Assembly: GCF_016758175.1 (NCBI RefSeq)
Contig: NZ_QYAB01000004.1
Coordinates: 248,001 to 312,000 of the forward strand
From: Leucobacter zeae
Lineage (GTDB): Bacteria > Actinomycetota > Actinomycetes > Actinomycetales > Microbacteriaceae
Reading direction: 5' to 3'
DNA: 64,000 nucleotides
Part shown: piece by piece, positions 3,971-64,000 of the stretch
Layout of the letters: each line of letters begins with the position of its first letter
Position numbering within the stretch: the first letter of the stretch is position 1
Notes under the pieces: generated by a model
What the model saw: only the letters and a program-made list of their open reading frames with translations
The model's database searches: none
What the model was told of the DNA's origin: nothing
Made by a program: the position numbers and the translations under genes

Positions 3971-4022
3971 ATCTGCACTCCGTATGCCGTTCGGGTGCCG
4001 CCCCGGCATACGAAGTGCAGAT
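3971..4022. repeat. 19-bp near-perfect palindrome upstream of the GntR gene
   Basis: Arms 3971-3989 and 4004-4022 pair with a single mismatch around a 14-base loop. It lies between the stop of the amidohydrolase (4148) and the start of the GntR gene (3879), both on the - strand. It may end the importer operon or act as an operator; the sequence alone does not decide. Confidence 0.55.
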
Positions 4023-4092
4023 CTCATACGGATGCGCCCCGCAGGGATCCTGCCGCGAGCGCACCGGCGGGCCGGCCGGCCCGGGCGGACAC

Positions 4093-4172
4093 CCCCGGCC
4101 GGAACACCGCCGGAAGACCGCAGGCTCCCCGGCCGGAACACCGCCGGCTACCCCAGCGGGAACACCGGCGGG
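4093..4172. repeat. 21-bp direct repeat at the 3' end of the amidohydrolase
   Basis: A 21-base sequence is present exactly at 4093-4113 and 4127-4147. The second copy abuts the stop codon at 4148, and a degenerate third copy, GGGAACACCGGCGGG, lies inside the last codons of the gene at 4158-4172. It looks like short local duplication of the gene's 3' end. Confidence 0.55.
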
Positions 4173-5692
4173 AAGAGCTCCGCCTCGGTCGATCCGCCCG
4201 GCCCCGCGAGCGCATCGCGCTCGGGGTAGGCGGCGCGCAGCTTCTCGAAGATCCGCTGGCCCTCGGCCCGCAGCGCCTCGGCGTCGAGGCCGGGGATCGC
4301 GCCGTCGCGCATCACGACGCGGCCCGCGACCATGCTGAAGTGCGCGTCGCGGCCGGTGCCCGAAAGGGTCAGCGTGCGGATCGGGTCGTCGATCGCGCCC
4401 ATGCGCAGATCCGCCAGCGAGAACGCGACGAGGTCGGCCGCGGCGCCCGCCTCGATGCGTCCGAGGTCGGGCCGGTGCAGGGCCCGGGCTCCCCCGAGCG
4501 TGGCGGCTTCGACGTACTCCGCGAGCAGGCCGGCCCCCAGGTCCCCGTGCTGCGCCTTCGCGAGCTGCACCCCCGTGTCGATCGCGCGCACGAGATCGGG
4601 CGGGAATGAGTCGGTGCCGAGGCCGACGTTCACGCCCGCCTCGAGATACTGCGAGAGGCGTTCGAGCAGCATCGCGTACCGGGCGTTCGTGACCGGGCAG
4701 TGCGCGATCGAGACGCCCGCGGCCGCGAGACGCGCGAGGTCGCCGCGATCCTCGCCGTGGACGTCGGGGTGCACGTCGATGTAGACGCCGTGCGCGAGCA
4801 CGAGTCGCTCGGTGAGCAGCCCGCTGCGATCGAGGAGGTCGAGCGGGGTCGTGCCCCGCTCCCGCTCGAGGATCCCGAGCTCGCTGTCGAGCCCCTGGGT
4901 CGCGTGCGCGCGCACGAGCACACCGCGCTCGGCGGACACCCGCCCGGTCTCGGCGAGGATCGCGTCGCTCACCGTCTCGATGCGGCACGGCACGAGCACC
5001 CCCGTGACCAGGGGATCGGCGAGCTCCGCGACCGAGTCGAGGAAGCGCACGGCCCCGGCGAACGCGGCTTCGCCCTTCGCCTCGTCCCAGTGGATGCCCC
5101 GGCTGCCGTCGGCGCGCACGACGTGCACCCCCGAGCGGTACGACGGGCCGAGGAACACGCGGATGCCGAGTTCGCTCGCGGTGCGGGCGGTGTCGAGCAG
5201 GTCGTCGTGCGTCTCGGCCCACGCCCCGTGGATCTCGGTCGAGATCGGCATCGCGCTCGTGATCCCGTGGAGGATCAGCTGCGCGAGCCCGTAGCGTCGC
5301 AGCGTGCTGCGCTCGGCGTCGGTGAGCACCTCCCTGGGGTCGGAGGCGTACGACTCCGACCACTCGAGGCGCGCCTCGTGCGCGTCGCTCCAGAACGAGT
5401 CGAGCTGCAGGTGGTCGATGTCCACGAGCCCCTCGAGGTCGATCAGGCCCGGCATGAGCAGGCTCTCGCCGAGGTCGATCGTCTCATCCGCGAGCGCGGC
5501 GATCGCGTCGCCGTCGACGCCCGGTGCGACGGCCTCGACCCGGTCCCCCCGCACGAGCACCACGGCGTCGCGCAGCAGCGCGAAGCCGCCGAGGCGCTCG
5601 TCGTGCGCGAGCACGAAGGCGGAGCGGAGGGCCGTGCCGCGCGATGCGCCCGGCTGGCGCACGGCACCGCCGCTCACGGCGCCGCCGCTCAC
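4148..5692 (-). CDS. Amidohydrolase superfamily protein (ATZ/TRZ-like, HxH motif missing)
   Basis: A 514-residue protein starting at a GTG that overlaps the stop of the upstream ABC ATPase by four bases (GTGA). The same frame stays open far upstream, but that region is the ATPase gene read out of frame. The fold signature of metal-dependent amidohydrolases is clear: LLMPGLIDL near residue 70, VLVRAHATQG near 265, LVLAHGVYID near 300, AHCPVTNARYAM near 335 and LGTDSFPPD near 365. The usual HxH metal-binding pair that should follow PGLID is absent, replaced by LEGLVDIDHLQLDS, so metal coordination differs from AtzA/TrzN/CodA enzymes. The substrate is unknown. Its place as last gene of an oligopeptide-type ABC operon suggests it acts on the imported compound. 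Confidence 0.75.
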   Translation of the reverse strand: MSGGAVSGGAVRQPGASRGTALRSAFVLAHDERLGGFALLRDAVVLVRGDRVEAVAPGVDGDAIAALADETIDLGESLLMPGLIDLEGLVDIDHLQLDSFWSDAHEARLEWSESYASDPREVLTDAERSTLRRYGLAQLILHGITSAMPISTEIHGAWAETHDDLLDTARTASELGIRVFLGPSYRSGVHVVRADGSRGIHWDEAKGEAAFAGAVRFLDSVAELADPLVTGVLVPCRIETVSDAILAETGRVSAERGVLVRAHATQGLDSELGILERERGTTPLDLLDRSGLLTERLVLAHGVYIDVHPDVHGEDRGDLARLAAAGVSIAHCPVTNARYAMLLERLSQYLEAGVNVGLGTDSFPPDLVRAIDTGVQLAKAQHGDLGAGLLAEYVEAATLGGARALHRPDLGRIEAGAAADLVAFSLADLRMGAIDDPIRTLTLSGTGRDAHFSMVAGRVVMRDGAIPGLDAEALRAEGQRIFEKLRAAYPERDALAGPGGSTEAELFPPVFPLG

Positions 5693-50707: not shown

Positions 50708-52285
50708 TCAGCCCCGCTCGGCCGCCGCGACAATGCGATGCACCATGCCGCTGAAGATGAGACCGTGGAAGGGCAGCATCGCGAGCCAGTAGAGCCGGCC
50801 GGCGAGCCCGCGCGGGAAGAAGACCGCGCGCTGGGAGTACCGGCTGCCGCTCCCCTCGGGCGCCACGCGGAACTCGAGCCAGGCCTCGCCGGGCACGCGC
50901 ATCTCGGCCCGCAGGCGGAGGAGGCGCTCGGGCACGATTCGCTCGACCCGCCAGACGTCGACGGCGTCGCCGACGCCGAGCCGGGTGCGGGATCGGCGGC
51001 CGCGCTGCATGCCGACGCCTCCGGCGAGCCGGTCGAGGATCCCGCGCAACGCCCAGAGCACCGAAGCCGAGTACCAGCCCGTGGCCCCTCCGATCTCGGA
51101 GACGACCCGCCAGACGTCGGCCGGCGCCGCCGCGGAGACGCGCGTGCGCGCATCCGTGAAGACCGTGCGGCCGGCCCAGTCGGGGTCGCTCGGCATCGGA
51201 TCGCTCGGCGCCCGCTCGAAGCGCGCGTCGACCCAGCTCGTCTCGATGGCGTCGAGCTCGATCCGGCCGAGCGCGAGTCGCACCGCGCGCCGGTAGGGCG
51301 TGAGGCCGCCGGCCGGGGGCGGGATGCACGCGTCGACCGCCCGATCGCGCACCACGCAGTCGTGCTGCAGCGACTCGACGAGGGGTCGTGCGATCGCGCG
51401 GGGCACCGGCGTCACGAGGCCGACCCAGTGCGAGGCGAGGCGAGGGGTGAACACCGGGAGGGACGCGATCCCCCGCTGCGCGAGCCCCGCCTCGACCGCG
51501 TAGCCGTTCATCATCTGCCCGTAGCGCAGCACATCGGGCCCGCCGATGTCGAGCACCCGGTCCGCATCACCGGGGAGCCGCACGGCGGCGAGCAGGTAGT
51601 AGAGCACGTCGCGGATCGCGATGGGCTGGATCCGGTTGCGCACCCAGCGCGGGGCGGGCATGTACGGGAGCACCTCGGTGAGGTGCCTGACCATCTCGAA
51701 CGAGGCGGATCCCGAGCCGATGATCACGCCGGCCTGCAGCACGACAGCCGGCACGGGAGACCGCAGCAGCACCTCGCCGACCTCGCGGCGGGACTCCAGG
51801 TGCGGGGACAGGCGCACGCCGTCGGGATGCAGCCCGCCGAGGTAGACGATACGGCGCACTCCGGCGCGAGCGGCCGCCGCAGCCGTGCTCGCCGCGATCG
51901 AGCGGTCGCGCTCCGCGAAGTCCCGCCCCGCGGCCATGGAGTGCAGCAGGTAGACGACGATATCGGCGTCCGCCATCGCGTCGCGCAGCGCGCCCGCATC
52001 GGCGGCGTCGCCCGCGACGATCTCCGCGTCGCCGGCCCACGGTGCTGCCGCGACGCGCTCGGGCGAGCGCGTGAGCACCCTGACCCGGTAGCCGCCCGTC
52101 AGGAGCCGCGGCACCAGGCGACCGCCGACGTACCCGGTCGCGCCGAGGACGAGCACTCGCGGCGCGATCCCCTCCGCGCCGACGACCGCGCGCAGCTCCG
52201 GCTCGTCGCCCGCCGGGAAGCTCAGGGAGCCGCGCTCCCGCGGCTCGTTCGACGGCTCGCCCGCCGGCGGCGGCCCCGCGGTCAT
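50708..52285 (-). CDS. SDR-type NAD(P)-binding protein with DUF2867 domain
   Basis: A 525-residue two-domain protein. Residues 40-340 are an atypical extended SDR (VLVLGATGYVGGRLVPRLLT, RSIAASTAAAAARAGVRRIV, LGGLHPDGVRLSPHLESRRE; the G-x-x-G-x-x-G motif is complete). Residues 360-525 are DUF2867 (GWYSASVLWALRGILDRLAG, DAVDVWRVERIVPERLLRLR, FFPRGLAGRLYWLAMLPFHG). It resembles YbjT-type proteins fused to a C-terminal domain of unknown use. It overlaps the CrtR-like gene by four bases, so it is in the same transcript; link to carotenoids is not shown. Confidence 0.82.
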   Translation of the reverse strand: MTAGPPPAGEPSNEPRERGSLSFPAGDEPELRAVVGAEGIAPRVLVLGATGYVGGRLVPRLLTGGYRVRVLTRSPERVAAAPWAGDAEIVAGDAADAGALRDAMADADIVVYLLHSMAAGRDFAERDRSIAASTAAAAARAGVRRIVYLGGLHPDGVRLSPHLESRREVGEVLLRSPVPAVVLQAGVIIGSGSASFEMVRHLTEVLPYMPAPRWVRNRIQPIAIRDVLYYLLAAVRLPGDADRVLDIGGPDVLRYGQMMNGYAVEAGLAQRGIASLPVFTPRLASHWVGLVTPVPRAIARPLVESLQHDCVVRDRAVDACIPPPAGGLTPYRRAVRLALGRIELDAIETSWVDARFERAPSDPMPSDPDWAGRTVFTDARTRVSAAAPADVWRVVSEIGGATGWYSASVLWALRGILDRLAGGVGMQRGRRSRTRLGVGDAVDVWRVERIVPERLLRLRAEMRVPGEAWLEFRVAPEGSGSRYSQRAVFFPRGLAGRLYWLAMLPFHGLIFSGMVHRIVAAAERG

Positions 52286-52833
52286 GATCGCTCCGCGTCC
52301 CGGGCGAGGCCGCCGAGGAACGCCACGACGGCGCGACGATCGCGGCTCGACAGGCCGGCCGCGGCGGTGAATCGACGCGCTTCCTCCCGACCGACCGCCC
52401 GCAGCATGAGCGCCTGCGTCGTCGCGGTGACGTCGATGCGCAGCGCCCTGCGGTCGTGCGGGTGCATGCTGCGCACGACGTGGCCGCCCGACTCGAGGCG
52501 ATTGAGCAGCTTGGTCGTCGAGGCCGCAGAGATGCCCAGGTGCCCCGCCAGTCGGCTCGGGGTCATGACCTCTCCGCGGCGCTGACCGGCTTCGAGGAAC
52601 TGGAGCGCGCGCAGGTCGCCCTCGGAGACGCCGACGGCACCCCGGTACGTCTCGGACAGACGACGCTCCGCGACGCGGAGCCGCTCGAGCGCGTCCATGA
52701 CCTCGACGATCTCCGCGGTCTCGGCCTCCGAGAGGTCCGGGGCATCGACGTCGAGCCCGTGCGCGTCATCGGCTGCCCCGCGCTCCGCGGCGCCGTGTCG
52801 ATGCGCGACGTCGAGCGCGATGCGTTCCTCCAT
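52282..52833 (-). CDS. MarR family regulator, CrtR-like
   Basis: A 183-residue MarR-type repressor. Helix-turn-helix VMTPSRLAGHLGISAASTTK and LLNRLESGGHVVRSMHPHDR, with the conserved wing DRRALRIDVTATTQAL. It is divergent from the isoprenoid/carotenoid operon, the same layout as crtR and crtE in Corynebacterium glutamicum, where CrtR represses crt genes and is released by GGPP. The start MEERIALD at 52833 is used so that ATAGTA repeats stay upstream; an in-frame ATG at 52857 (MRQLLLSA) gives 191 residues and neither has a strong ribosome site. CrtR function is an inference from layout. Confidence 0.85.
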   Translation of the reverse strand: MEERIALDVAHRHGAAERGAADDAHGLDVDAPDLSEAETAEIVEVMDALERLRVAERRLSETYRGAVGVSEGDLRALQFLEAGQRRGEVMTPSRLAGHLGISAASTTKLLNRLESGGHVVRSMHPHDRRALRIDVTATTQALMLRAVGREEARRFTAAAGLSSRDRRAVVAFLGGLARDAERS

Positions 52834-52890
52834 TGCACTCAATAGTAGTTGCCTCATGCATTCCGGGATTCGGCGGCGAAGCTGCCCGCA

Positions 52891-52913
52891 TTTACTATCC
52901 TGTGGTTTACTAT
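52891..52913. promoter_or_regulatory. Candidate CrtR operator / crt promoter
   Basis: TTTACTAT occurs at 52891-52898 and 52906-52913, 15 bases apart, and the inverse ATAGTA is at 52842-52847. This AT-rich block of 134 bp lies between the MarR gene and idi and differs strongly from the GC-rich surroundings. It probably holds divergent promoters and the MarR binding sites. An exact -35/-10 pair cannot be fixed. Confidence 0.45.
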
Positions 52914-52967
52914 AACTCCTGAGACACTAAAACGCAGCACCGGATGCGACTCACGCGAGGAGGCGAG

Positions 52968-53519
52968 ATGCGAACCCATCCCGAGATGGTGGTGCTCCTC
53001 ACCCCGGAGGGCGCACCGTGCGGCACCGCGGCGAAGGCCGACGTGCACACCGAGGCGACACCGTTCCACCTCGCGTTCTCGTGCTACCTCGTCGACTCGA
53101 CCGGCCGTCTGCTCGTCACCCGCCGCGCGCTGGCGAAGCGGACCTGGCCCGGGGTGTGGACGAACAGTTTCTGCGGCCACCCGGCACCGGGCGAGACCGG
53201 AGCGGACGCCGTGGTCAGGCGCGCACGGGAGGAGCTCGGCGCTCGAGTCGTCGACGTCACCTGCGTCCTGCCCGACTTCACCTACCGCGCGGTCGACGCC
53301 TCGGGCATCGTCGAGCACGAACTGTGCCCGGTGTACATCGCGCGGCTGGAGGGCGAGCTGCTGCCCGAGCCGAGCGAGATCTCGGAGTGGGCGTGGATCG
53401 ATCCGGGCCCCCTGCAAGGAGCCCTCTCGGACGCTCCGTTCGCCTTCAGCCCGTGGATCCGCGAGCAGCTCCCCCGGCTCACCGCTGCGGGCGCCTGGGA
53501 CCGGCGAGGTGCGGCATGA
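52968..53519 (+). CDS. idi: Isopentenyl-diphosphate delta-isomerase, type 1
   Basis: A 183-residue Nudix-fold isomerase that interconverts IPP and DMAPP. The active-site cysteine is in WTNSFCGHPAPGE near residue 67, the Nudix-like helix in AVVRRAREELGARV, and the second active-site region DFTYRAVDASGIVEHELCPV near 110 with conserved Glu. The GTG/ATG choice: the ATG at 52968 has AGGAGG five bases upstream; an in-frame ATG at 52944 has none. First gene of the carotenoid operon; overlaps crtE by four bases. Confidence 0.93.
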   Translation: MRTHPEMVVLLTPEGAPCGTAAKADVHTEATPFHLAFSCYLVDSTGRLLVTRRALAKRTWPGVWTNSFCGHPAPGETGADAVVRRAREELGARVVDVTCVLPDFTYRAVDASGIVEHELCPVYIARLEGELLPEPSEISEWAWIDPGPLQGALSDAPFAFSPWIREQLPRLTAAGAWDRRGAA

Positions 53520-54634
53520 CGCTGACGCAGCTGCGCGAACCGCGCACCTCCGACCCGATCGCGAGCGAGATCTCCGACGCCATCGCGCGCGTGCTCGAGC
53601 CCCGGGCGCACCGCGCAGCCGCCCAGGGGACGCATGTCCTCGAGCTCTGGCGGCTCGCGGTACAGTGCCTCCGCGGCGGGAAGATGCTCCGCCCGCGGCT
53701 GCTCATGGGCGCCTTCGACGCGATCGCGGGGGCGCGCGACGGGCTCGCCCTCCGGCGGCACGCCGCGCTCGACCTCGCCGCCGCGCTCGAGGTGCTCCAC
53801 TTCTCGTTCCTCCTCCACGACGACCTCATCGACGAGGACCTGCTGCGCCGGGGGTCGCCGAACCTCATCGGCCACCTCGCATCGGGCCGCGGCCCCCGTA
53901 CGGCGTTCGCGGACGCCGATCCGCGCGAGACCCGCAGGCTGCACTGGGCGCGCAGCAGCGCACTGCTCGTGGGCGACCTCATGCTGACGATCGCGCATCA
54001 GGTCTTCGCGCGGGTGCATCTGCCCGAGCACGCCCGCATCCGCGTGCTCGACCTGCTCGACACCGCGGTCTCCGAGACGGTCGCGGGCGAGTACTCCGAC
54101 GTGGGGCTCGCGGACGGCGCCCTCGCCTCCGATGTGGAGCTCGTCCTCGAGATGACGCGGATGAAGACGGCGACCTACACGTTCGAGCTGCCGCTGCGCA
54201 TCGCCGCCGTGCTCGCCGATGCGCCCCCGCGCCTCGGCATGCTCCTGGGCGACGCCGGCAGGCATCTCGGCATCGCCTTCCAGCTGCAGGACGACCTGCT
54301 CTCGGCCTTCGGACGCCCCGAAGCCCACGGCAAGGACGAGTTCTCCGATTTCCGCGAGGGGAAGGAGACGGCGCTCATCGCGCACGCGCGCACGACCGCC
54401 GCGTGGCCGACGATCGAGGAGCTGCTGGGGCGCCCCGAGTTCACCGCCGAGAACGGGCGCACGATCCAGCGCCTGCTCGAGTCGAGCGGATCGCGCGCCT
54501 GCATCGAGTCGATGGTCCGCGACCGCATCTCCGCCGCGCTCACGATCCTCGCCCCCGAGGGCGATCCGGTGCCGCCCGCGGTGTCCAGCTTCATCCTCGG
54601 CCTCGTGGACTCGATCGACGGGAGGCGGGCATGA
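53516..54634 (+). CDS. crtE: Geranylgeranyl diphosphate synthase
   Basis: A 372-residue trans-polyprenyl diphosphate synthase. The first aspartate-rich motif is LLHDDLIDEDLLRRG near residue 100, and the second FQLQDDLLSAFG near 258 (DDLLS in place of DDxxD, as in many actinobacterial GGPP synthases). EGKETALIAHARTTAAWPTI follows. It condenses IPP with allylic diphosphates to C20 GGPP, the substrate of phytoene synthase. Overlaps idi and crtB by four bases each. Confidence 0.93.
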   Translation: MTLTQLREPRTSDPIASEISDAIARVLEPRAHRAAAQGTHVLELWRLAVQCLRGGKMLRPRLLMGAFDAIAGARDGLALRRHAALDLAAALEVLHFSFLLHDDLIDEDLLRRGSPNLIGHLASGRGPRTAFADADPRETRRLHWARSSALLVGDLMLTIAHQVFARVHLPEHARIRVLDLLDTAVSETVAGEYSDVGLADGALASDVELVLEMTRMKTATYTFELPLRIAAVLADAPPRLGMLLGDAGRHLGIAFQLQDDLLSAFGRPEAHGKDEFSDFREGKETALIAHARTTAAWPTIEELLGRPEFTAENGRTIQRLLESSGSRACIESMVRDRISAALTILAPEGDPVPPAVSSFILGLVDSIDGRRA

Positions 54635-55572
54635 GCGGCGACCTTCGCAGCACCGGCGCGCACGGCGGCGCGCTCGACGGCTACCGCTCGGCGTCCGAGC
54701 GCGCCTCCGATCAGGTGATCCGCGCGTACTCCACCTCCTTCGGCGCCGCCACCCGGCTGCTCGGCGCACGCCACCGCACCCACGTGCGCAACATCTACGC
54801 CCTCGTCAGGGTCGCGGACGAGCTCGTCGACGGCGTCGCATCCGAGGCCGGGCTCTCGCGCGACGAGCAGTCGGCTCGTCTCGACGCGCTCGAGCGCGAG
54901 ACCGACGACGCCATCCGCACGGGCTACAGCAGCAACCCCATCGTCCAGGCCTTCGCCGGAACCGCGCGGGCCTCGGGCATCGACGGCGCCCTCACCGCCC
55001 CCTTCTTCGCCTCGATGCGCACGGACCTCGATTCCGCGCCTGGCGGGCCCCACGAACGCCCCGCGATGCGACGCTTCGACGCGGACGCCCACGCGGACTA
55101 CGTCTACGGCTCTGCCGAGGTCGTCGGGCTCATGTGCCTGCGCGTCTTCCTGCGCGACGAACCGGTGAGCGCCGCCGATCTGCGCACGCTCGAACGCGGC
55201 GCGAGGAGTCTCGGCGCGGCGTTCCAGAACGTGAACTTCCTGCGCGACGTCGCCGACGACACCGAACGGCTGCAGCGCGGATACCTCGGCACGGGCGAGG
55301 CGCTCACCGAGGCCGAGAAGCGGCGCTGGATCGAGACGATCCGCGCCCAGCTCGCCGACGCCAGGGGCGTACTCCCCCTGCTGCCCGCGGATGCGCGCCG
55401 CGCCGTGGCGTGCGCCTGGCTGCTGTTCGCGCGACTCACGGATCGGATCGAGCGCACGCCGCTCGACGAGCTGTTCGTCCGCAGAGTGAGCGTTCCCGTC
55501 GGGGAGAAGGCGGTGCTCGTACTGAGGGCGATCGTCGGCGCCGGCGGCCGGGTCTGGCAGGGTGCCGCATGA
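54631..55572 (+). CDS. crtB: Phytoene synthase
   Basis: A 313-residue squalene/phytoene synthase family enzyme. The N-terminal YSTSFGAATRLLGARHRTHV, the first D-rich motif YALVRVADELVDG near residue 58 and the second NVNFLRDVADDTERLQRGYL near 195 are visible, as is EVVGLMCLRVFL. It joins two GGPP head-to-head to 15-cis-phytoene at the membrane. It overlaps crtE and crtI by four bases each; downstream CrtI desaturates the product. Confidence 0.95.
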   Translation: MSGDLRSTGAHGGALDGYRSASERASDQVIRAYSTSFGAATRLLGARHRTHVRNIYALVRVADELVDGVASEAGLSRDEQSARLDALERETDDAIRTGYSSNPIVQAFAGTARASGIDGALTAPFFASMRTDLDSAPGGPHERPAMRRFDADAHADYVYGSAEVVGLMCLRVFLRDEPVSAADLRTLERGARSLGAAFQNVNFLRDVADDTERLQRGYLGTGEALTEAEKRRWIETIRAQLADARGVLPLLPADARRAVACAWLLFARLTDRIERTPLDELFVRRVSVPVGEKAVLVLRAIVGAGGRVWQGAA

Positions 55573-57242
55573 CCGCGCGCACCGTCATCGTCGGCGGCGG
55601 GATCGGCGGCCTCGCGACCGCCGCCCTGCTCGCGCGAGAGGGCCATCGGGTGCGCCTGCTCGAACGGCACTCCGACGTCGGCGGACGCGCGGGATCCGTG
55701 GAGCGCGACGGGTTCCGCTTCGACACGGGGCCCTCCTGGTACCTCATGCCGCGGGTGTTCGAGCACTTCTTCGAGCTGCTCGGCACCTCCGCCGACGAGC
55801 AGCTCGACCTGCGCACCCTCGACCCCGGCTACCGGGTGTTCCGCGAGCCGCCCTCGCAGCCCGGGAGCGTCGACGTCCCGTTCGGGGCTCAGCGCGCCGC
55901 CGCCGTATTCGACCGGCTCGAGGCCGGAAGCGCAGCGCGCCTGCACCGCTACCTCGGCTCGGCGCGCAACGCGTCGCGGATGGCCGAGCGCTTCTTCCTC
56001 TACAACCCGTTCACCCGCCGGCGCTCGCTGCTCGACCGCGAGATCCTCACCGCGCTCCCCCGCCTCGCGCGGCTGCTCCGCACCCCGCTGCAGCGGTTCG
56101 TCGAAGGCCGCTTCGCGCACCCGGTGCTCCGCCAGATCCTCGAGTACCCGGCGATCTTCCTCGGCACGGATCCGCGCCGGGCTCCGGCGATCTACCACCT
56201 CATGAGCGCGCTCGACCTCGACGACGGCGTGCGCTACCCCATCGGGGGCTTCCGGGAACTCGTCGATCGGCTCGAACGCCTCGCGCTCGACCACGGGGCG
56301 GAGATCGTGACCGACGCGGAGGTCACCGCGATCCTCACCCGCCGCACCGACGGCCGCCTCGCTGCGAGCGGCGTCCGGTGGCGCGACGCCGACGGCACCG
56401 AGCACCTCGAGCACGCGAATATCGTGGTCTCCGCGGCCGACCTCCACCACACCGAGACCGAGCTCCTCCCCGAGCAGGCGCGCAGCTACCCGGAGTCATG
56501 GTGGGCGCGTTGCGAGAGCGGGCCCGGGGCGGTGCTCGTGCTGCTCGGCGTGCGCGGCGAGCTGCCGCAGCTCCCCCACCACTCGCTCTTCTTCACGTCC
56601 GACTGGGACGCGAACTTCGACGCGATCTTCGGCCAGGAGACCGCCCTGCCGGATCCGGCATCGATCTACGTCTGCAAGCCCAGCGCGACCGACGCGGGCG
56701 TCGCGCCGCGAGGATCCGAGAACCTCTTCGTCCTGGTGCCGGTGCCCGCGGACGTCTCGATCGGCTCAGGCGGACCCGACGGCACCGGGGACCGCGCGGT
56801 CGAGGCGATCGCCGACCGGGCGATCGCGCAGATCGCATCGTGGGCCGGCATCCCCGACCTCCCCGACCGCATCGTCGTGCGGCAGACCATCGCCCCGGGC
56901 GATTTCGCCCGCGACTACTCCTCGTGGCGCGGCGGGATGCTCGGCCCGTCGCACATCCTCCGGCAGAGCGCGATGTTCCGCACCCAGAACGCGTCGAAGC
57001 GCGTCGACGGCCTCTTCTACGCGGGCGCGACGACGGCGCCCGGCGTCGGTGTGCCGATGTGCCTCATCAGCGCGGAGCTCGTGCTCAAGCGGATCCGCGG
57101 GGATCACTCGGCGGGGCCGACCGCCCCGATGCCCGCCCCCGCTCCTCGAGGCCGTTCCGGCTCCGGGCCCGCGGTCCGATCCGCGCCGGCGGTCCGACCC
57201 GATCCCGACCGCGCCCCGACCCGACTGCACGAACGGAGCTGA
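55569..57242 (+). CDS. crtI: Phytoene desaturase (lycopene-forming)
   Basis: A 557-residue FAD enzyme. The dinucleotide fold is VIVGGGIGGLATAALLAREG at the start, followed by DVGGRAGSVERDGFRFDTGP, and the C-terminal FAD site DGLFYAGATTAPGVGVPMCL ISAE-type segment near residue 490. CrtI performs the four desaturations from phytoene to lycopene. About 40 extra C-terminal residues are Pro/Arg/Ser-rich ([20 protein letters not shown]), probably disordered. It is 6 bp from crtYc. Confidence 0.95.
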   Translation: MTARTVIVGGGIGGLATAALLAREGHRVRLLERHSDVGGRAGSVERDGFRFDTGPSWYLMPRVFEHFFELLGTSADEQLDLRTLDPGYRVFREPPSQPGSVDVPFGAQRAAAVFDRLEAGSAARLHRYLGSARNASRMAERFFLYNPFTRRRSLLDREILTALPRLARLLRTPLQRFVEGRFAHPVLRQILEYPAIFLGTDPRRAPAIYHLMSALDLDDGVRYPIGGFRELVDRLERLALDHGAEIVTDAEVTAILTRRTDGRLAASGVRWRDADGTEHLEHANIVVSAADLHHTETELLPEQARSYPESWWARCESGPGAVLVLLGVRGELPQLPHHSLFFTSDWDANFDAIFGQETALPDPASIYVCKPSATDAGVAPRGSENLFVLVPVPADVSIGSGGPDGTGDRAVEAIADRAIAQIASWAGIPDLPDRIVVRQTIAPGDFARDYSSWRGGMLGPSHILRQSAMFRTQNASKRVDGLFYAGATTAPGVGVPMCLISAELVLKRIRGDHSAGPTAPMPAPAPRGRSGSGPAVRSAPAVRPDPDRAPTRLHERS

Positions 57243-57248
57243 CCGGCG

Positions 57249-57638
57249 ATGCCGATTCCCGATTCCTCCCAGTACCTCCTGCTCATGGCGGGGTGCCTGA
57301 TCATCACCCTGCCGCTCGAGTTCCTGCTCGGCGCCCGCGTGTACCGGCGCCCGCTGCGGCTCGTGCAGGCGGTGCTCGTCACGCTCATCGTGTTCTCGGT
57401 CTGGGACGCCATCGCCATCGGGGCAGGCATGTGGACGTACAGCCCGAAGTACACGAGCGGCATCGCGGGCCCGTTCGGGCTGCCCCTCGAGGAGATCGTG
57501 TTCTTCGTCGTGATCCCGATCTGCGCGCTCCTCACGTACGAGGCCGTGGGACGGGTGCTCGCATTCCTCCGGGGCAGGGCGCGGGATCGCGTCCCGGGCC
57601 CCGGGCGGTCTGACGCCGGCCGGGGAGGCGCTCGATGA
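57249..57638 (+). CDS. crtYc: Lycopene cyclase subunit, small heterodimeric type (CrtYc/CrtYe-like)
   Basis: A 129-residue membrane protein with three helices (YLLLMAGCLIITLPLEFLLG, LVQAVLVTLIVFSVWDAIAI, VFFVVIPICALLTYEAVGRV) and the cyclase motif LPLEEIVFFVVIP (P-x-E-E). It is one half of the split lycopene cyclase of actinobacteria. By sequence the beta-cyclase (CrtYc) and the C50 epsilon-cyclase (CrtYe) cannot be told apart by eye; CrtYc is preferred because crtU follows and no lycopene elongase gene is present. The last 20 residues are Gly/Arg-rich. Overlaps crtYd by four bases. Confidence 0.85.
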   Translation: MPIPDSSQYLLLMAGCLIITLPLEFLLGARVYRRPLRLVQAVLVTLIVFSVWDAIAIGAGMWTYSPKYTSGIAGPFGLPLEEIVFFVVIPICALLTYEAVGRVLAFLRGRARDRVPGPGRSDAGRGGAR

Positions 57639-57988
57639 ACCTCTGGTCCGCCTATCCGGTCGCCACCCTCCTGACGATGCTGGCGGTCGTGCTGCTCGAG
57701 CTGCTCTGGCTGCGGACCGGCATCTTCCGCACCGCGCAGTACTGGATCGCGATGGTCATCATGTTCTCCTTCCAGGTGCTCGTCGACGGTTGGCTGACGA
57801 AGCTCAGCGACCCGATCGTGATCTACACGCCCGAGACCATGCTCGGGCTCCGCTTCCCCTGGGACATCCCGGTCGAAGACTTCGGGTTCGGATTCGCCAT
57901 GATCACCCTCACGCTCATCGTCTGGAAGGCCGTCGGGCGTCGGGACGCGATGGCCGAGGAACGGCGCACCCCGGAAGCCGGGGCCTGA
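57635..57988 (+). CDS. crtYd: Lycopene cyclase subunit, small heterodimeric type (CrtYd/CrtYf-like)
   Basis: A 117-residue membrane protein with three helices (VATLLTMLAVVLLELLWLRT, WIAMVIMFSFQVLVDGWLTK, FGFAMITLTLIVWKAVGRRD) and the cyclase motif FPWDIPVEDFGFGF (P-x-E-D). It partners the previous subunit. With it, lycopene would be cyclised at both ends. It ends with TGA one base before the crtU start, so the two genes are almost certainly co-translated. Confidence 0.85.
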   Translation: MNLWSAYPVATLLTMLAVVLLELLWLRTGIFRTAQYWIAMVIMFSFQVLVDGWLTKLSDPIVIYTPETMLGLRFPWDIPVEDFGFGFAMITLTLIVWKAVGRRDAMAEERRTPEAGA

Positions 57989-57989
57989 G

Positions 57990-59600
57990 ATGGCGCGGCG
58001 AGGCTGGACGCGCGACGCGCGCGCCATCGAGATCCCCGCGCCGGCCGGCGCGCCCCGCGTCGGGTCTCCGCGTCGGGTCGTCGTGGTCGGCGGCGGGATC
58101 GCCGGCCTCGCCGCGGCGTGCGGGCTCGCCGAGCGCGGGGTCGATGTGACGCTCGTCGAGGCGGAGCCCGAGCTCGGCGGGCGGGTGCGGTCGTGGCGGA
58201 CGCGGTCCGCGGCTGGCGACGTGACGATGAGCCGCGGATTCCACGCGTTCTTCCGGCAGTACTACAACCTGCGCGCGCTCCTCTCCCGCGCGGGCGCACC
58301 CGACGAGATGCTGCGTCCGGTCGAGGACTACCCGGTGCTCAGCTCCCGCGGCGACCGCGACTCGTTCGCGCGGATCCCGCGCACGCCGCCCTGGAACTTC
58401 ATGGCCTTCGTGGCGCAGAGCCCCACCTTCCGCGCACGGGACCTCGCGCGCGTCGACGTCGACACGGCGCTCTCGCTCCTCGACGTCGACTTCCCCGAGA
58501 CGTTCCGGGAGCTCGACGGCATGAGCGCCGCCGACTTCCTCGACCGGCTGCGCTTCCCGGATCGGGCCCGCCACCTCGCGCTCGAGGTCTTCGCGCGGAG
58601 CTTCTTCGCGGATCCGCGGGAGTTCTCCGCAGGCGAGCTCGTCGCGATGTTCCACTCCTACTTCCTCGGCTCGGCGGAGGGGCTGCTGTTCGACGTGCCG
58701 CGGGACGACTTCGACACCTCGCTGTGGCGCCCGCTCGCGGACGCGCTCGCGGCGCGCGGGGTGCGCACCGTCACGGGCACGGTCACTGGCATCGAGCGGA
58801 TGCCTGCGGCTTCGGCCGAGGACCCCGGCTGGATCGTCGCGCGGGACGACGGCTCGCGCGAGCGCGCCGACGCGGTGGTGCTCGCCGCGGGGCCGCGATC
58901 CGCCCGCGAGCTCGTCGCCGCATCTCCGGGTCTCGGCCCCCTCGCCTGGCGCGAGCGAATGGCGCGGATCGAGCTCGCCCCGCCGTTCGCCGTCCTCAGG
59001 CTCTGGTTCGACGGCCGCGTCGCAGCGGACCGGCCCGCGTTCCTCGGCACAGCGGGGTTCGGCCCGCTCGACAACGTGACCGTGCTCGAGCGGTTCGAGC
59101 GGGGGGCGGCCGAGTGGTCGGACGCGCACGGAGGGAGCGTCGTCGAGCTCCACGCGTACGCGATCGATCCCGCCGCCGAGCACGATGCGGAGCTGCGCGC
59201 GGAGATCGCGGTGCGGCTGCGCGACGAGCTCTCCCGGGTCTACCCCGAGACGGTCGCGCTCGGCGTCGTCGACGAGCAGCTGCTCGTCGAGCGCGACTGC
59301 GCCCTCATCGGTACGGGCCCGTGGGAGGACCGCCCCGAGGTGGTGACCCCCGTGCCCGGTCTCGTGCTCGCGGGCGACTGGGTGCGCAGCGACCTCCCGA
59401 TCGCGCTCATGGAGCGCGCGGCGACGACCGGGTGGTCGGCGGCGAACGCCCTGCTGCAGCACTGGGGCGTCGCGGGCCACCCGCTGCGCAGCGCACCCCC
59501 GGGCAGCAGGCAGAGCTGGCCGCGTCTCGCCCGCTGGCTCATCGCCCGGGCCCCTCTCGGGCGGGCTCGTCGCGCCGCCCGCCGGCGGTCCCGAAGCTGA
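57990..59600 (+). CDS. crtU: CrtU-type carotene desaturase/methyltransferase
   Basis: A 536-residue FAD-dependent protein. The dinucleotide fold VVVVGGGIAGLAAACGLAER lies at residue 31; FHAFFRQYYNLRALLSRAGA, RIPRTPPWNFMAFVAQSP, RHLALEVFARSFFADPREFS and MFHSYFLGSAEGLLFDVPRD are the blocks of the CrtU family (isorenieratene synthases of Streptomyces and Brevibacterium). CrtU desaturates and shifts a methyl group to turn beta-rings into aromatic phi-rings. The N-terminal 30 residues are extra. Its last 62 bases overlap the convergent P450 gene. Confidence 0.87.
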   Translation: MARRGWTRDARAIEIPAPAGAPRVGSPRRVVVVGGGIAGLAAACGLAERGVDVTLVEAEPELGGRVRSWRTRSAAGDVTMSRGFHAFFRQYYNLRALLSRAGAPDEMLRPVEDYPVLSSRGDRDSFARIPRTPPWNFMAFVAQSPTFRARDLARVDVDTALSLLDVDFPETFRELDGMSAADFLDRLRFPDRARHLALEVFARSFFADPREFSAGELVAMFHSYFLGSAEGLLFDVPRDDFDTSLWRPLADALAARGVRTVTGTVTGIERMPAASAEDPGWIVARDDGSRERADAVVLAAGPRSARELVAASPGLGPLAWRERMARIELAPPFAVLRLWFDGRVAADRPAFLGTAGFGPLDNVTVLERFERGAAEWSDAHGGSVVELHAYAIDPAAEHDAELRAEIAVRLRDELSRVYPETVALGVVDEQLLVERDCALIGTGPWEDRPEVVTPVPGLVLAGDWVRSDLPIALMERAATTGWSAANALLQHWGVAGHPLRSAPPGSRQSWPRLARWLIARAPLGRARRAARRRSRS

Positions 59601-60729
59601 CGACGAAATCGCGCACGCGGTAGCCCTGCACGAGCGTGTCGAAGCCGAGATCCGGCTCGTGCTCGATGGCGGCGCCGGCGTCGATGAGCGCGGTGAGCAG
59701 CACTTCGGTCTCGAGGAGCGCCAGGTGGGAGCCCGGGCAGCGATGGGCGCCGTCGCCGAAGCTGAGCCCCGTGCGCGCGCCCGCGGGCAGACCGCGACGC
59801 GTGTCGACCGCACCGGGATCCGGTCCGAACGCCTCGGGATCGGTGTTCGCACGGCGGACGTCGACGTCGACGAGCGTGCCAGGCGCGTGGGGGCACCCGT
59901 CGGCCGTCGCGCGCACGCGGCGGTACAGGTGGGCGACCGGCGGATCCAGGCGGATGAGCTCGCTGAGCAGGGCGAGGCGCTCCGGCGGCTCGGACGAGCG
60001 GTAGTGCGCGAGGAGCTCGGGGTCGTCGAGCAGGCGCCAGAGCGCCATCCCTATGAACTCGCGCGTCGTCACCATGCCGGCGGTGCCGTAGGTGAGGCAC
60101 TCCACGAGGATTTCACGGGGACGGTAGCCCTGCGCGAGCAGGTGGCTGATGATGTCGTCCGCGGGGCGCGCGCGGCGCGCGCGAATGGCCGGACGCACGT
60201 CGCGCCAGTAGAGGGCCGCGAGGGGCCCGAGCGCGCGTCGTGCCGCTCGAGCCCAGTCGGCGCGGGTGCGCCCGTGATCCGCTCGCGTGTGGTCCACGGG
60301 GGGCTGGCGGAAGAAGGCCTCGAGGCGCCGCTCGAGCCCGCGGTCGCTTCCCGTCGCGAGCCCGACGATCTGCGCCGCGACACGCACGGAACAGGTGAGT
60401 GCGAGCTCGTCGACCCGGCAGCGCCCGGCGCGCACGGCCTCCGCGACGAGATCGGACGCGGTCCGCTCGATGAACGCCCGGTGCCGCTCCTCCAGCGTTC
60501 TCGGGCTGAAGAAGCGCACGAGCTGCTTGCGGTGCTCGAGGTGCTCGGGGCCGTCGTCGATGAGGATCGGGCGCCGCGCGAAGAGGCCCTGCGGGATGCG
60601 CTCCGCGGTGAACCCCGCCTGGGTCGTCGCGTCCTTCGCCCGCAGCACCGAGCGCGCCTCGCCGAGCCGGGCGACCCGGGCGACGCACTGCCCCTCGGGC
60701 GGCTCCGGGGGTCGGGGCTGGCGGGTCAT
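59539..60729 (-). CDS. Cytochrome P450, likely carotenoid ring hydroxylase
   Basis: A 396-residue bacterial P450. The heme-binding loop is LSFGDGAHRCPGSHLAL near residue 345 (F-x-x-G-x-x-x-C), the K-helix E-x-x-R is in LSELIRLDPPVAHLYRR and the I-helix threonine in GTAGMVTTREFIG. The ATG at 60729 is the natural start; the frame is open further but with unrelated residues. In Brevibacterium linens a P450 next to crtU makes 3,3'-dihydroxyisorenieratene; here it is convergent with crtU and part of a BLUF-P450 operon, so the same role is likely but not proven. Confidence 0.85.
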   Translation of the reverse strand: MTRQPRPPEPPEGQCVARVARLGEARSVLRAKDATTQAGFTAERIPQGLFARRPILIDDGPEHLEHRKQLVRFFSPRTLEERHRAFIERTASDLVAEAVRAGRCRVDELALTCSVRVAAQIVGLATGSDRGLERRLEAFFRQPPVDHTRADHGRTRADWARAARRALGPLAALYWRDVRPAIRARRARPADDIISHLLAQGYRPREILVECLTYGTAGMVTTREFIGMALWRLLDDPELLAHYRSSEPPERLALLSELIRLDPPVAHLYRRVRATADGCPHAPGTLVDVDVRRANTDPEAFGPDPGAVDTRRGLPAGARTGLSFGDGAHRCPGSHLALLETEVLLTALIDAGAAIEHEPDLGFDTLVQGYRVRDFVVSFGTAGGRRDEPAREGPGR

Positions 60730-60751
60730 GCGCGTGCGGCTCGGCCGTCGA

Positions 60752-61198
60752 TCAGCGGTGCAGCGACCGGACTCGGAACCAGAGTGCGAGCTCGTCCATG
60801 GCCTGCAGCACCTGTTCGACGCGGTCGGCCCGCTCGAGCGTGGCGAAGGTGTCGCGGAAGCCGGCGGGCGGCGGCGCGGCGGCCGCCCGCAACGGCTCGT
60901 AGCCCATGGTCCACGACGTGAATCGCCGCGACTCGACGGGGGAGTCCAGCAGCACACGCACGCGCTCGTGGCGAGGGTCGGCGGAGATCGAGGCGAATAC
61001 CTCGCGCACGGCCTCCGCTGGCCCCTCGAGGTACTGCACGAAGCGGCCGTCGCGGTAGAGCAGGATTCCGGTGATCCCCAGCCGTTCGTTCCGCGCGCGC
61101 GCCTGGGCGAGGATCTCCTCGAGCTCCGGCTCCCCCGCGGATCCGATCGCGTCGCTCGCGTAGATGAGCGCGCTCAGCTGCATCCCGCTAGTGCTCAT
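60752..61198 (-). CDS. BLUF domain blue-light sensor
   Basis: A 148-residue protein. Residues 5-95 are a BLUF domain: LSALIYASDAIG (with the conserved Tyr that donates to flavin), NERLGITGILLYRDGRFVQY (Asn and Gln of the flavin H-bond network) and LEGPAEAVREVFASISADPR. A C-terminal helix FATLERADRVEQVLQAMDEL follows. It binds FAD and senses blue light; no enzymatic output domain is fused. It is 22 bp upstream of the P450 on the same strand and overlaps the unknown 94-aa gene by 11 bases. Start MSTSGMQLS is used. Confidence 0.88.
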   Translation of the reverse strand: MSTSGMQLSALIYASDAIGSAGEPELEEILAQARARNERLGITGILLYRDGRFVQYLEGPAEAVREVFASISADPRHERVRVLLDSPVESRRFTSWTMGYEPLRAAAAPPPAGFRDTFATLERADRVEQVLQAMDELALWFRVRSLHR

Positions 61199-61472
61199 CG
61201 CCGTCCTCCTGTTCTGCACCCTCGGGGCGCTCGACCAGCGCCGGGCCGCCCGAGCTCACGGATTCCAGGAGGCGCATGGCCGGCTCCAGCGCGGCGAAGA
61301 AGCCGAGCGAATGCGCATCGGCGTCGCACACCTGGTAGCGAGCCGTTTCGATGCGGTCGATGTAGCCGAGCAGCACGGTCCCGCGGCTGGCGACATAGAA
61401 GCCGTCCTCGACGCACGCCCAGGTCAAGGGGCCACCGGCCACCTCAGGATCACTCCTCAAGAACGCCCCCAT
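61188..61472 (-). CDS. Unknown 94-aa protein, upstream of the BLUF gene
   Basis: A 94-residue protein with no membrane segment. It reads MGAFLRSDPEVAGGPLTWAC at the start, then VEDGFYVASRGTVLLGYIDR and ETARYQVCDADAHSLGFFAA, with an acidic C-terminus (EGAEQEDGDEH). The W-x-x-x-E-x-G-F-Y-V-A-S-R-x-G/T pattern is of small actinobacterial proteins of unknown function. Its end overlaps the BLUF gene by 11 bases, so the two are translationally coupled and it may work with the photoreceptor. Function not known to me. Confidence 0.65.
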   Translation of the reverse strand: MGAFLRSDPEVAGGPLTWACVEDGFYVASRGTVLLGYIDRIETARYQVCDADAHSLGFFAALEPAMRLLESVSSGGPALVERPEGAEQEDGDEH

Positions 61473-61610
61473 CCCCGACCCGGATCCTGCTCGCGCGGTG
61501 AGTCATGGCTTCACACTAGCAGTCCTGCGGGCGGGCTTCTCGCGCCATTCCGGGCACACCGCAGAGGATCCTGCGCGCGACGTTCAACGCTGATTCGACC
61601 CCGAGCATAC

Positions 61611-61644
61611 CGATGGCCCGGTCCAGCAGTGGACCGGGCCATCG
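61611..61644. terminator. 15-bp perfect hairpin with GCAG loop
   Basis: CGATGGCCCGGTCCA (61611-61625) pairs perfectly with 61630-61644 around a 4-base loop. It is in the 418-bp gap downstream of the surface protein gene (- strand) and upstream of the 94-aa gene, so it likely ends the surface protein transcript. A U-tract is not evident. The remainder of this gap contains no gene that I can support. Confidence 0.6.
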
Positions 61645-61725: not shown

Positions 61726-61890
61726 CTCACACGACCGCGGTCCGGGGAGAACATCACGCGAAACGCAGAACTTTATCTCCGAATCTCGCAAGACGGCTGC
61801 AAGACCGCCGCGGGGTCTCGGAGAACGACGAGCGGGGTGCGAGGCCAGAACGACCCCGCACCCCGCTCACCCGTTCAGCGGCTCAGGCGA

Positions 61891-64000
61891 TCACTCGCTC
61901 CGTGCCGCGCGTCGCCGCGCGTTGAGCACGAATCCGATGCCGATCAGCAGCAGGGCCGCTCCGCCGACGCCGAGAGGCCACAGCGCATCGCCGCCCGTCG
62001 TCACCAGGTCCGGGCGCTCCGGCGCAGGCGGCGTGGTGTGCTCGGTCTCGCACGGATCCTCGGCGGTGCAGCTGCCCGGAGGCGTCACCGCATCACCCGT
62101 CACGACGTTCCGCAGGGTGCGCCCGAACGCGTCATCGTTCACCGTGACGCGGTAGGTGATGGTCCGGGTCTCCCCTGCCTGCAGCGTACCCACGCGCCAG
62201 GTGATGATCTCACCGGAGTGCGTCGCCTTTCCGCCGTCGTCGCTCACGAAGTCGTCGAACTTCGCGTCGTCCAGGATGTCATCCAGGTAGTCGGTGACGA
62301 CCACGTCGTTCACGGCCTTCTTCGAAGCATTGACCGCAGTCAGCGTGTAACTGATCGTCGACCCCGGAGCAACCACCGAACCCGAAGCCGGATCCGACGT
62401 CTTCGACAGCGACCACGTCGCCGGCGTCTCATGCTCCGTCGAGCACGGCTCATCAACCGTGCACTCCGTCGGCGGCACCTCACCCGAACCCGTGACCACG
62501 TTCTTGAGCGACACCCCGATGGCGTCCTCATTCACCGTGACCGTGTACGTCACCGTCCGAGTCTCCCCGGCAGCAAGCGTCCCCACGTTCCACGTCAGGT
62601 CATTACCCGAACGAGTCGCCTTCCCACCATCATCATTCGTGAACTCACCAAACGACGCGTTGTTCAGCACCTCGGCCAGATCATCCGAAACGACCACGTC
62701 GTTCACGGCCTTCTTCGAAGCATTGACCGCAGTCAGCGTGTAACTGATCGTCGACCCCGGAGCAACCACCGAACCCGAAGCCGGATCCGACGTCTTCGAC
62801 AGCGACCACGTCGCCGGCGTCTCATGCTCCGTCGAGCACGGCTCATCAACCGTGCACTCCGTCGGCGGCACCTCACCCGAACCCGTGACCACGTTCTTGA
62901 GCGACACCCCGATGGCGTCCTCATTCACCGTGACCGTGTACGTCACCGTCCGAGTCTCCCCGGCAGCAAGCGTCCCCACGTTCCACGTCAGGTCATTACC
63001 CGAACGAGTCGCCTTCCCACCATCATCATTCGTGAACTCACCAAACGACGCGTTGTTCAGCACCTCGGCCAGATCATCCGAAACCGTGACACCGGTCACC
63101 GGGTGGGCCGAGTCGTTGGAGGCGGTCAGCGTGTAGCTGATCGTCGATCCCGGGGCGACCGTGGATCCCGAAGCGGGGTCCGACGTCTTCGCGAGCGTCC
63201 ACTCGCCCTGGATCAGCGCGTTCTTCACCGCTCCGATGTCGAGGACCAGCGTGCCGCGGTCCACCGCGCTCGGGGCCACGTTGACCGCGATGGGCTCCGC
63301 GATGGGCTGGTACCCGTCCGGCGCAGCCGTCTCGGTCAGCGTGTACTCGCCCCACGGGACACCGACGAGGGAGAACTTCCCCGCCGCGGGATCCTGGTCG
63401 GCGCCGACGCACGGCAGACCGACGCAGTCGATGACCGCGAGCGGCAGGCTCGCGCCGACACCGACCTCTGCGGGCTCGGAGCCCGCCTTCGCCTCGAGGC
63501 GCCACTCCGAGCCGGCCAGCAGCTCCCCGGTGGTCTGGTCGGTCTTCGACCACGCCAGGTCCGGGATCATGCGCAGGCCGACGGGCGTCTGCTCGGTGGG
63601 CAGCGTCGAGCGGCCGCTCGAGTGCTCGACCGCGACGATCGCGACGTTGTTCCAGGCGACCCCGTCGAGCGCGGCATCCGTCGTCACGTTCGGCCCGGCC
63701 GCACGCACGTCAAGCATGATCTGCGCGCGCTCTCCCGCGGCGAACACGCGATCACCGAAATCGAAGCGGATCGCCGTCACGGCGCTGTAGTCGCCGAGCG
63801 GCGGAACGGCGCTCCAGTCGTTCACGCATCCCGCTGGTGCACTGCCGATGGCGCCGCCGCCCGTGCCTGCGAGATCGCCGCGGCAGGGGTTGGTAGCGAC
63901 CGAGTACTGGACCGTCGCACCCTGCGGGGCTGCGACCGCTCCGGTCAGGCGCACCGGGAACTCCGAGTTGCGCGGCGTCCCCGACGCCCCGGGGAGCGTC
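61891..64000 (-). CDS. Sortase-anchored surface protein with SpaA-like and DUF11-like repeats (5' end outside window)
   Basis: The frame is open from the right edge of the window to the stop at 61891, so at least 702 residues are encoded and the N-terminus (signal peptide) is missing. From the left edge of the visible protein: a globular part, then a SpaA/Cna-B-like domain with the isopeptide pattern (WSKTDQTTGELLAGSEW, LTETAAPDGYQPIAEPI), then three DUF11-like modules each starting with KTSDPASGS and ending with V-T-G-x-x-V-x-P-P and a CTVDEPCSTEHETP cysteine loop. The C-terminus has a sorting motif LVTTG (61993-62007), a hydrophobic helix and a basic tail, so it is attached to the wall. A GTG at 63954 should not be read as the start. 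It is probably an adhesin or wall structural protein. Confidence 0.88.
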   Translation of the reverse strand, partial: TLPGASGTPRNSEFPVRLTGAVAAPQGATVQYSVATNPCRGDLAGTGGGAIGSAPAGCVNDWSAVPPLGDYSAVTAIRFDFGDRVFAAGERAQIMLDVRAAGPNVTTDAALDGVAWNNVAIVAVEHSSGRSTLPTEQTPVGLRMIPDLAWSKTDQTTGELLAGSEWRLEAKAGSEPAEVGVGASLPLAVIDCVGLPCVGADQDPAAGKFSLVGVPWGEYTLTETAAPDGYQPIAEPIAVNVAPSAVDRGTLVLDIGAVKNALIQGEWTLAKTSDPASGSTVAPGSTISYTLTASNDSAHPVTGVTVSDDLAEVLNNASFGEFTNDDGGKATRSGNDLTWNVGTLAAGETRTVTYTVTVNEDAIGVSLKNVVTGSGEVPPTECTVDEPCSTEHETPATWSLSKTSDPASGSVVAPGSTISYTLTAVNASKKAVNDVVVSDDLAEVLNNASFGEFTNDDGGKATRSGNDLTWNVGTLAAGETRTVTYTVTVNEDAIGVSLKNVVTGSGEVPPTECTVDEPCSTEHETPATWSLSKTSDPASGSVVAPGSTISYTLTAVNASKKAVNDVVVTDYLDDILDDAKFDDFVSDDGGKATHSGEIITWRVGTLQAGETRTITYRVTVNDDAFGRTLRNVVTGDAVTPPGSCTAEDPCETEHTTPPAPERPDLVTTGGDALWPLGVGGAALLLIGIGFVLNARRRAARSE
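62297..63082. repeat. Perfect 393-bp tandem repeat (two copies) in the surface protein gene
   Basis: Positions 62297-62689 and 62690-63082 are identical by my line-by-line reading over 393 bases (131 codons). The repeat encodes one DUF11-like module each. The flanking modules on both sides are clearly diverged, so the identical pair is a recent duplication or has been homogenised by gene conversion. Confidence 0.9.

Follow-up and report, generated by a model that had tools for sequence, protein, structure and literature searches.

A 94-amino-acid (aa) protein of Leucobacter zeae and the short BLUF photoreceptor encoded next to it very probably form a functional pair. Their genes lie in a stretch of 64,000 nucleotides (contig NZ_QYAB01000004.1, positions 248,001 to 312,000; hereafter referred to as the window, the positions of which are used below), part of a genome of 3.47 Mb from the Leucobacter group (hereafter referred to as G000). 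As read from the open reading frames (ORFs), they head a minus-strand row of three genes, consisting of the 94-aa gene (61188-61472), the BLUF gene (60752-61198, 148 aa) and a P450 gene (59539-60729, PF00067 over its cut-off), which converges on an aromatic-carotenoid cluster. The ATG codon of the BLUF gene, at 61198, is preceded by the stretch CAGGAGGA, and the 94-aa and BLUF genes share 11 bp (61188-61198, minus strand, bases ATGAGCACTAG), an overlap likely to couple their translation. The BLUF and P450 genes are 22 bp apart. The initial annotation of this DNA, which described these distances and three minus-strand genes facing the crt operon, had the coordinates exactly right, and its proposal of a single operon is supported by the layout, with the overlap and the short gap. 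It had also made its interpretation depend on conservation of the trio in relatives, and we found the gene order partner-BLUF-P450 in three of 54 genomes of the genus (G000, G020 and G021). The 11-bp overlap is repeated in G020 and G021, with BLUF-P450 gaps of 12 and 13 bp (read by eye); this arrangement is therefore more than a matter of chance.

The pairing of the two genes was followed by searching the 54 genomes with the 94-aa protein and for BLUF. The partner family was present in 13 of the 54 genomes, and BLUF in the identical 13 (a coincidence with a probability of 9e-13 if the two were independent and relatedness is ignored). All 18 partner genes lay directly upstream of a BLUF gene, ending -11 to +15 bp from a possible BLUF start codon (ATG, GTG or TTG); a 19th BLUF match in the genus is a decayed copy, preceded by a decayed partner. 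One decayed partner-BLUF pair (G024:C116:345382-345880) was observed about 2 kb from an intact pair on the opposite strand. A scan of named genomes retrieved 42 partner loci, from Leucobacter, Microbacterium, Schumannella, Okibacterium and metagenome-assembled genomes, and BLUF was next to the partner on the same strand in 42/42 (11 Leucobacter loci repeat the genus set, and the Schumannella and Okibacterium loci are also in the family set). One locus (L173) was retrieved through its partner, although that gene was not called as an ORF; partner and BLUF overlap by 4 bp in 28 of the 41 loci with calls for both. With the partner of Leucobacter sp. wl10 (G034) as the query, 72,556 plasmid records gave two matches, both weak (E 0.007 and 0.02) and both from Dietzia, a member of another order; both adjoin a BLUF gene, with a 4-bp overlap in the one with both genes annotated. 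A search of the class (394 genomes) at E ≤1e-8 gave partner matches confined to this family (11 genomes), under a limit so strict that partners as divergent as those of Dietzia would be missed. Finally, the second pair of genome G363 is a natural fusion, a single 210-aa frame in which the BLUF start codon and the partner stop codon have been lost. The initial annotation had named the 94-aa protein as a candidate partner of BLUF, and this constant pairing supports it far more strongly than the window could. From the sequences, BLUF and the 94-aa protein probably bind each other directly. A published description of the partner family or of its pairing with BLUF was not found in the literature searched, which consisted mostly of sources other than subscription journals; the family and the pairing are new, as far as searched, and the BLUF domain itself is ordinary.

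The 148-aa protein matched PF04940 over residues 8-99 (107 bits for a cut-off of 25, E 5.4e-31), and no other domain exceeded its cut-off in the library scan, in agreement with the earlier statement that this BLUF has no output domain. Its relatives of solved structure among the PDB matches were the BlrB-type receptor 2byc, Tll0078 and AppA. The residues presumed to form the flavin site, with positions assigned by AppA numbering, are all present (Y13, N37, Q55, W96 and M98), and were kept in 59-60 of 60 BLUFs with a partner (one row is gapped at the tyrosine) and in 101/101 partnerless BLUFs of the same family (21 + 80). The C-terminal part, which in short BLUFs is the expected site of partner binding, carries a GFRDTF...ELALWFRVR motif typical of partner-linked BLUFs: the pattern ELxxW[FY][RKN]xR was found in 58/60 paired sequences (the failures being two Dietzia rows), but in only 7/101 unpaired ones. 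In a tree of the 161 BLUFs, a branch with an SH-aLRT support of 97 separated the 60 paired sequences from the others, one unpaired sequence, L315, falling among them. The paired rows were collected through the partner, and the tree therefore shows only that pairing tracks BLUF kinship, and does not bear on the frequency of failed pairing. L315, a solitary BLUF within the paired clade, may have lost its partner recently, or may owe its position to a long-branch effect. Two plasmids carry BLUF domains of a different build: in Curtobacterium (L069 4001-5053), the domain forms the N-terminal portion of a 350-aa protein, and in Frigoribacterium (L070 ~4001-5068), the BLUF match enters a gene annotated only as a TetR C-terminal domain, such that BLUF-TetR fusions may exist in the Microbacteriaceae.

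The 94-aa protein matched neither a Pfam nor an NCBIfam model, even with a limit of E 1, and 24 members of its family gave no match at E ≤0.01 (best 0.026). Its conserved core spans about residues 16-75 and is followed by an acidic tail. The exact start of the gene is uncertain, as the ORF scorer favoured a GTG 30 bases inward; the core begins inward of both candidate starts. An AlphaFold model based on 18 sequences was confident for residues ~16-70 (mostly >90), and contained five strands followed by one helix. There was no helix-turn-helix in this model, and its structural comparison with the PDB yielded no solved fold that stood out.

The carotenoid cluster facing the trio has the plus-strand order idi-crtE-crtB-crtI (52944-57242, identified by their position and by inspection of the sequence), two lycopene cyclase subunits (129 + 117 aa, 57249-57988, TIGR03462) and a CrtU-type desaturase/methyltransferase (57990-59600), all in one operon. 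The CrtU protein is 53-54% identical to proteins of Streptomyces plasmids, one of which is encoded in a crt cluster, after a lycopene cyclase gene, and its gene overlaps the 3' end of the convergent P450 gene by 62 bp. CrtU (E ≤1e-60) and an orthologue of the P450 (58-71% identity) were found in the same five of the 54 genomes, and in each of these the two neighbouring genes converge and overlap. This supports a role of the P450 in tailoring the aromatic carotenoid; the enzyme is a probable hydroxylase, with FGDGAHRCPG as what we take to be its heme-cysteine motif, and the product may be hydroxylated isorenieratene. The P450 of the window is 39-42% identical to Deinococcus plasmid P450s among the matches listed. 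By description, it resembles the P450 reported to finish aryl carotenoids in Brevibacterium (PMC12096840) and CYP287A1 of Deinococcus, reported to hydroxylate a carotenoid as the last step (PMC11306087), neither of these accounts mentioning BLUF in its accessible text. P450 genes of this kind also stood immediately behind MarR genes in Leucobacter sp. wl10 (L078 6292-7952) and on a plasmid of Deinococcus wulumuqiensis (L226 3382-5098).

The partner-BLUF pair was present in four of the five CrtU clusters, next to the P450 gene in three of them and, in Leucobacter sp. wl10, immediately ahead of the cyclase genes (two) and CrtU. It was commoner in genomes with CrtU (4/5 vs 9/49; p 0.0097, relatedness ignored). 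The BLUFs of these four clusters did not form a single clade (AU test, p 0.002 with 81 rows and 0.033 with 55 rows) and belong to two BLUF lineages. The recurrent link, as far as gene content and order can tell, is thus that of the pair with the aromatic-carotenoid cluster as a whole, rather than with the P450. This repeated placing is new, as far as searched, the cluster itself being ordinary. The initial interpretation stands in part: the trio is kept in three genomes, but the P450 as a general target is weakened, as most pairs have no P450 beside them (only three of the 18 Leucobacter pairs do). Light-controlled ring hydroxylation, as suggested initially, would be possible, but the DNA shows only a light sensor encoded in one row with the P450. 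Whether the pigment genes are under light control at all could, on this evidence, be answered equally well either way.

A second link, weaker than that with pigment, concerns regulators of the MarR type. One such gene (52282-52857, minus strand, MarR_2 2.3e-10), followed by an SDR-DUF2867 gene, takes the crtR position and reads away from the crt operon, an ordinary arrangement, and is a candidate target of the light signal. The gap between this gene and idi contains the only three TACTAT/ATAGTA hexamers of the window (52842, 52893 and 52908; 52842-52913), which resemble operators. In 20-kb regions, these boxes were again found only at the head of crtR in G020, G021 and G034, and none was found in G026. 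Downstream of four Leucobacter pairs (that of G002 and close copies in three further loci) stands a MarR gene, from the same subfamily in each case. The MarR protein of G002 belongs to the same subfamily as, and is 47-54% identical to, that encoded beside a second partner-like domain of the present genome (G000:C2:396418-396597; L146 5407-5571), which lies 18 bp upstream of its MarR gene. Weaker relatives of the partner, including this second one, mostly stand alone; among the 35 loci at which such relatives are not beside BLUF, seven had an adjacent MarR gene, whereas the share of MarR genes in the background (11 of 741 genes) predicts 1.0 (p 6e-5). In the genus g85, the partner relatives of L147-L150 overlap a DUF7882-type gene by 4 bp (Pfam match seen in L147) and have MarR-like genes beside them; several carry a hydrophobic C-terminal stretch and form a separate cluster. 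A MarR-type protein as the target of the partner nevertheless seems to us a doubtful assignment.

We propose that the 94-aa and BLUF genes constitute one module, in which a short BLUF receptor would be produced, by coupled translation, together with a dedicated small partner. Blue light would alter the BLUF protein, the flavin residues of which are intact, and the change would be relayed through its C-terminal helices to the five-strand/one-helix domain of the partner. The partner would probably serve as an anti-repressor, its target being a repressor of transcription, with MarR-type proteins as the likeliest class. With the module heading a three-gene operon that includes the carotenoid P450, the sensor and the last pigment enzyme would be produced together, and light would raise the expression of the pigment genes and of the P450. 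We consider the arguments for and against this scheme as a whole, in which two proteins would form a blue-light switch that controls transcription via a MarR-type repressor and tunes pigment, to be evenly balanced. More tentatively, the pair may represent a new class of light-signalling cassette, a short BLUF with a small adaptor, mobile as two genes (also on Dietzia plasmids), coupling blue light to MarR-type repressors and built at least twice into aromatic-carotenoid clusters.

The scheme is plausible because AppA-PpsR, YcgF-YcgE and BlsA-Fur relieve repressors and a short LOV protein acts on LitR. In the first three systems, the available text describes a BLUF protein that binds and relieves the repressor itself, with an added domain in two cases (PMC5955987), whereas we propose a separate adaptor, and the regulator is a candidate. 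PmSB-LOV, a short flavin receptor encoded near light-induced genes, relieves the repressor PmlR2 (PMC9758184), but its domain is LOV, its effector is the adjacent LitR-type regulator itself, and a small third protein is not mentioned in the accessible part of that report. PixD of Synechocystis, which serves phototaxis with the response-regulator-like PixE (PMC5955987, as far as the available text goes), is, like the 148-aa BLUF described here, a stand-alone short BLUF requiring a separate partner. The partner studied here is constantly adjacent and, unlike PixE, is small, belongs to no Pfam or NCBIfam family or to that of PixE, and is encoded upstream, mostly with an overlap and once fused to BLUF. 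In Corynebacterium glutamicum, the MarR-type CrtR is encoded divergently from the crt operon and pigment is light-inducible (PMC6739363), and CrtR is reported to respond to GGPP (PMC5401885); LOV, BLUF and LitR receptors are all reported, in the accessible text, to be absent from the light-responding strains with sequenced genomes (PMC6739363). The window likewise has a MarR gene divergent at the head of the crt operon, but the BLUF module lies at the opposite end of the carotenoid cluster.

Several observations weigh against the proposed scheme. G026 has CrtU and the P450 but lacks BLUF. The fusion is a single case, absent from 26 other genomes of its genus, and its model (pTM 0.59) leaves the relative placement of the two domains unfixed. 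Outside Leucobacter (398 genomes), four of the 15 partner matches of at least 55 bits had no BLUF beside them, as did two of four in three further genomes; all six are in g85. No MarR gene was next door in 28 of the 35 loci of partner relatives without BLUF, and none was detected with our own MarR profile among the flanking genes (at most eight per side) of the Microbacterium pairs; six of the nine sequences used to build this profile were neighbours of the small domain. A single ancestral arrangement seems to underlie the four Leucobacter loci with BLUF and MarR. TACTAT boxes are absent in front of the trio, and therefore no shared operator was found. The absence of these boxes, together with the variable neighbourhoods of most pairs and the position of two of the five P450 orthologues outside a BLUF row (in G034, behind a MarR gene, and in G026), would also fit a general light-stress module with its target elsewhere, behind which the P450 rides on a convenient promoter in three species. 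We regard this alternative as a possibility to be taken seriously, though not as the probable one. It accounts poorly for the presence of pairs from two BLUF lineages in four of five aromatic-carotenoid clusters and at two positions (beside the P450, and before cyclase-CrtU in wl10), a placing with a chance of about 0.0007 in a rough calculation that takes 10 sites as independent and 14 kb out of 3.4 Mb.

The small protein might instead be a helper of BLUF, in folding, flavin loading or dimer support, with BLUF itself contacting the effector, as in BlsA-Fur. Short BLUFs that contact regulators directly have been described (PMC5955987, in its available text), and the small gene stands first and overlaps BLUF, but the 101 other BLUFs of the family manage without such a protein, and the domain is also found at loci lacking BLUF, some of them with MarR genes alongside, where a BLUF helper would be needless; we consider this unlikely. 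It is very improbable that the BLUF complex gates the P450 enzyme itself by protein contact, making hydroxylation light-gated: the trio forms one row in three species, but the P450 orthologues of G026 and G034 lie outside a BLUF row and most pairs have no P450 neighbour. Least probable of all is the chance neighbourhood of three genes unrelated in function. Small genes in compact genomes often overlap their neighbours, but chance adjacency of the 94-aa gene and BLUF was rejected on the basis of the 18/18, 42/42 and 2/2 adjacency; for the P450 the counter-case is weaker, yet the arrangement is kept in three species.

On its upstream side, the trio is parted from an adhesin-like gene of the same strand (61891-63954) by two hairpins, one of 17 bp, strong and terminator-like, 3' of the adhesin gene (61815-61885, minus strand), and a second at 61590-61640 (z -5.5 and -2.8); the trio therefore probably has its own transcript, separate from that of the adhesin gene. 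A consensus terminator scan called no terminator there. The adhesin-like gene contains near-identical tandem blocks, with identical 63-aa frames at 62340-62531 and 62733-62924, 393 bp apart.

Partner, BLUF and the presumed last pigment enzyme are encoded in one row, which suggests that light tunes a protective pigment. With BLUF and a dedicated partner inside a pigment cluster, the question of the photoreceptor becomes directly testable in Leucobacter, and a new family of BLUF partners with a natural fusion would be useful for structural work and as a compact light switch. Light-induced pigment formation in Micrococcales and Corynebacteriales is reported, in the accessible text, to run via the MarR-type CrtR (PMC6739363). 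If the tentative cassette interpretation is true, the module described here would supply a photoreceptor where carotenogenesis in this family is induced by light under MarR/CrtR control.

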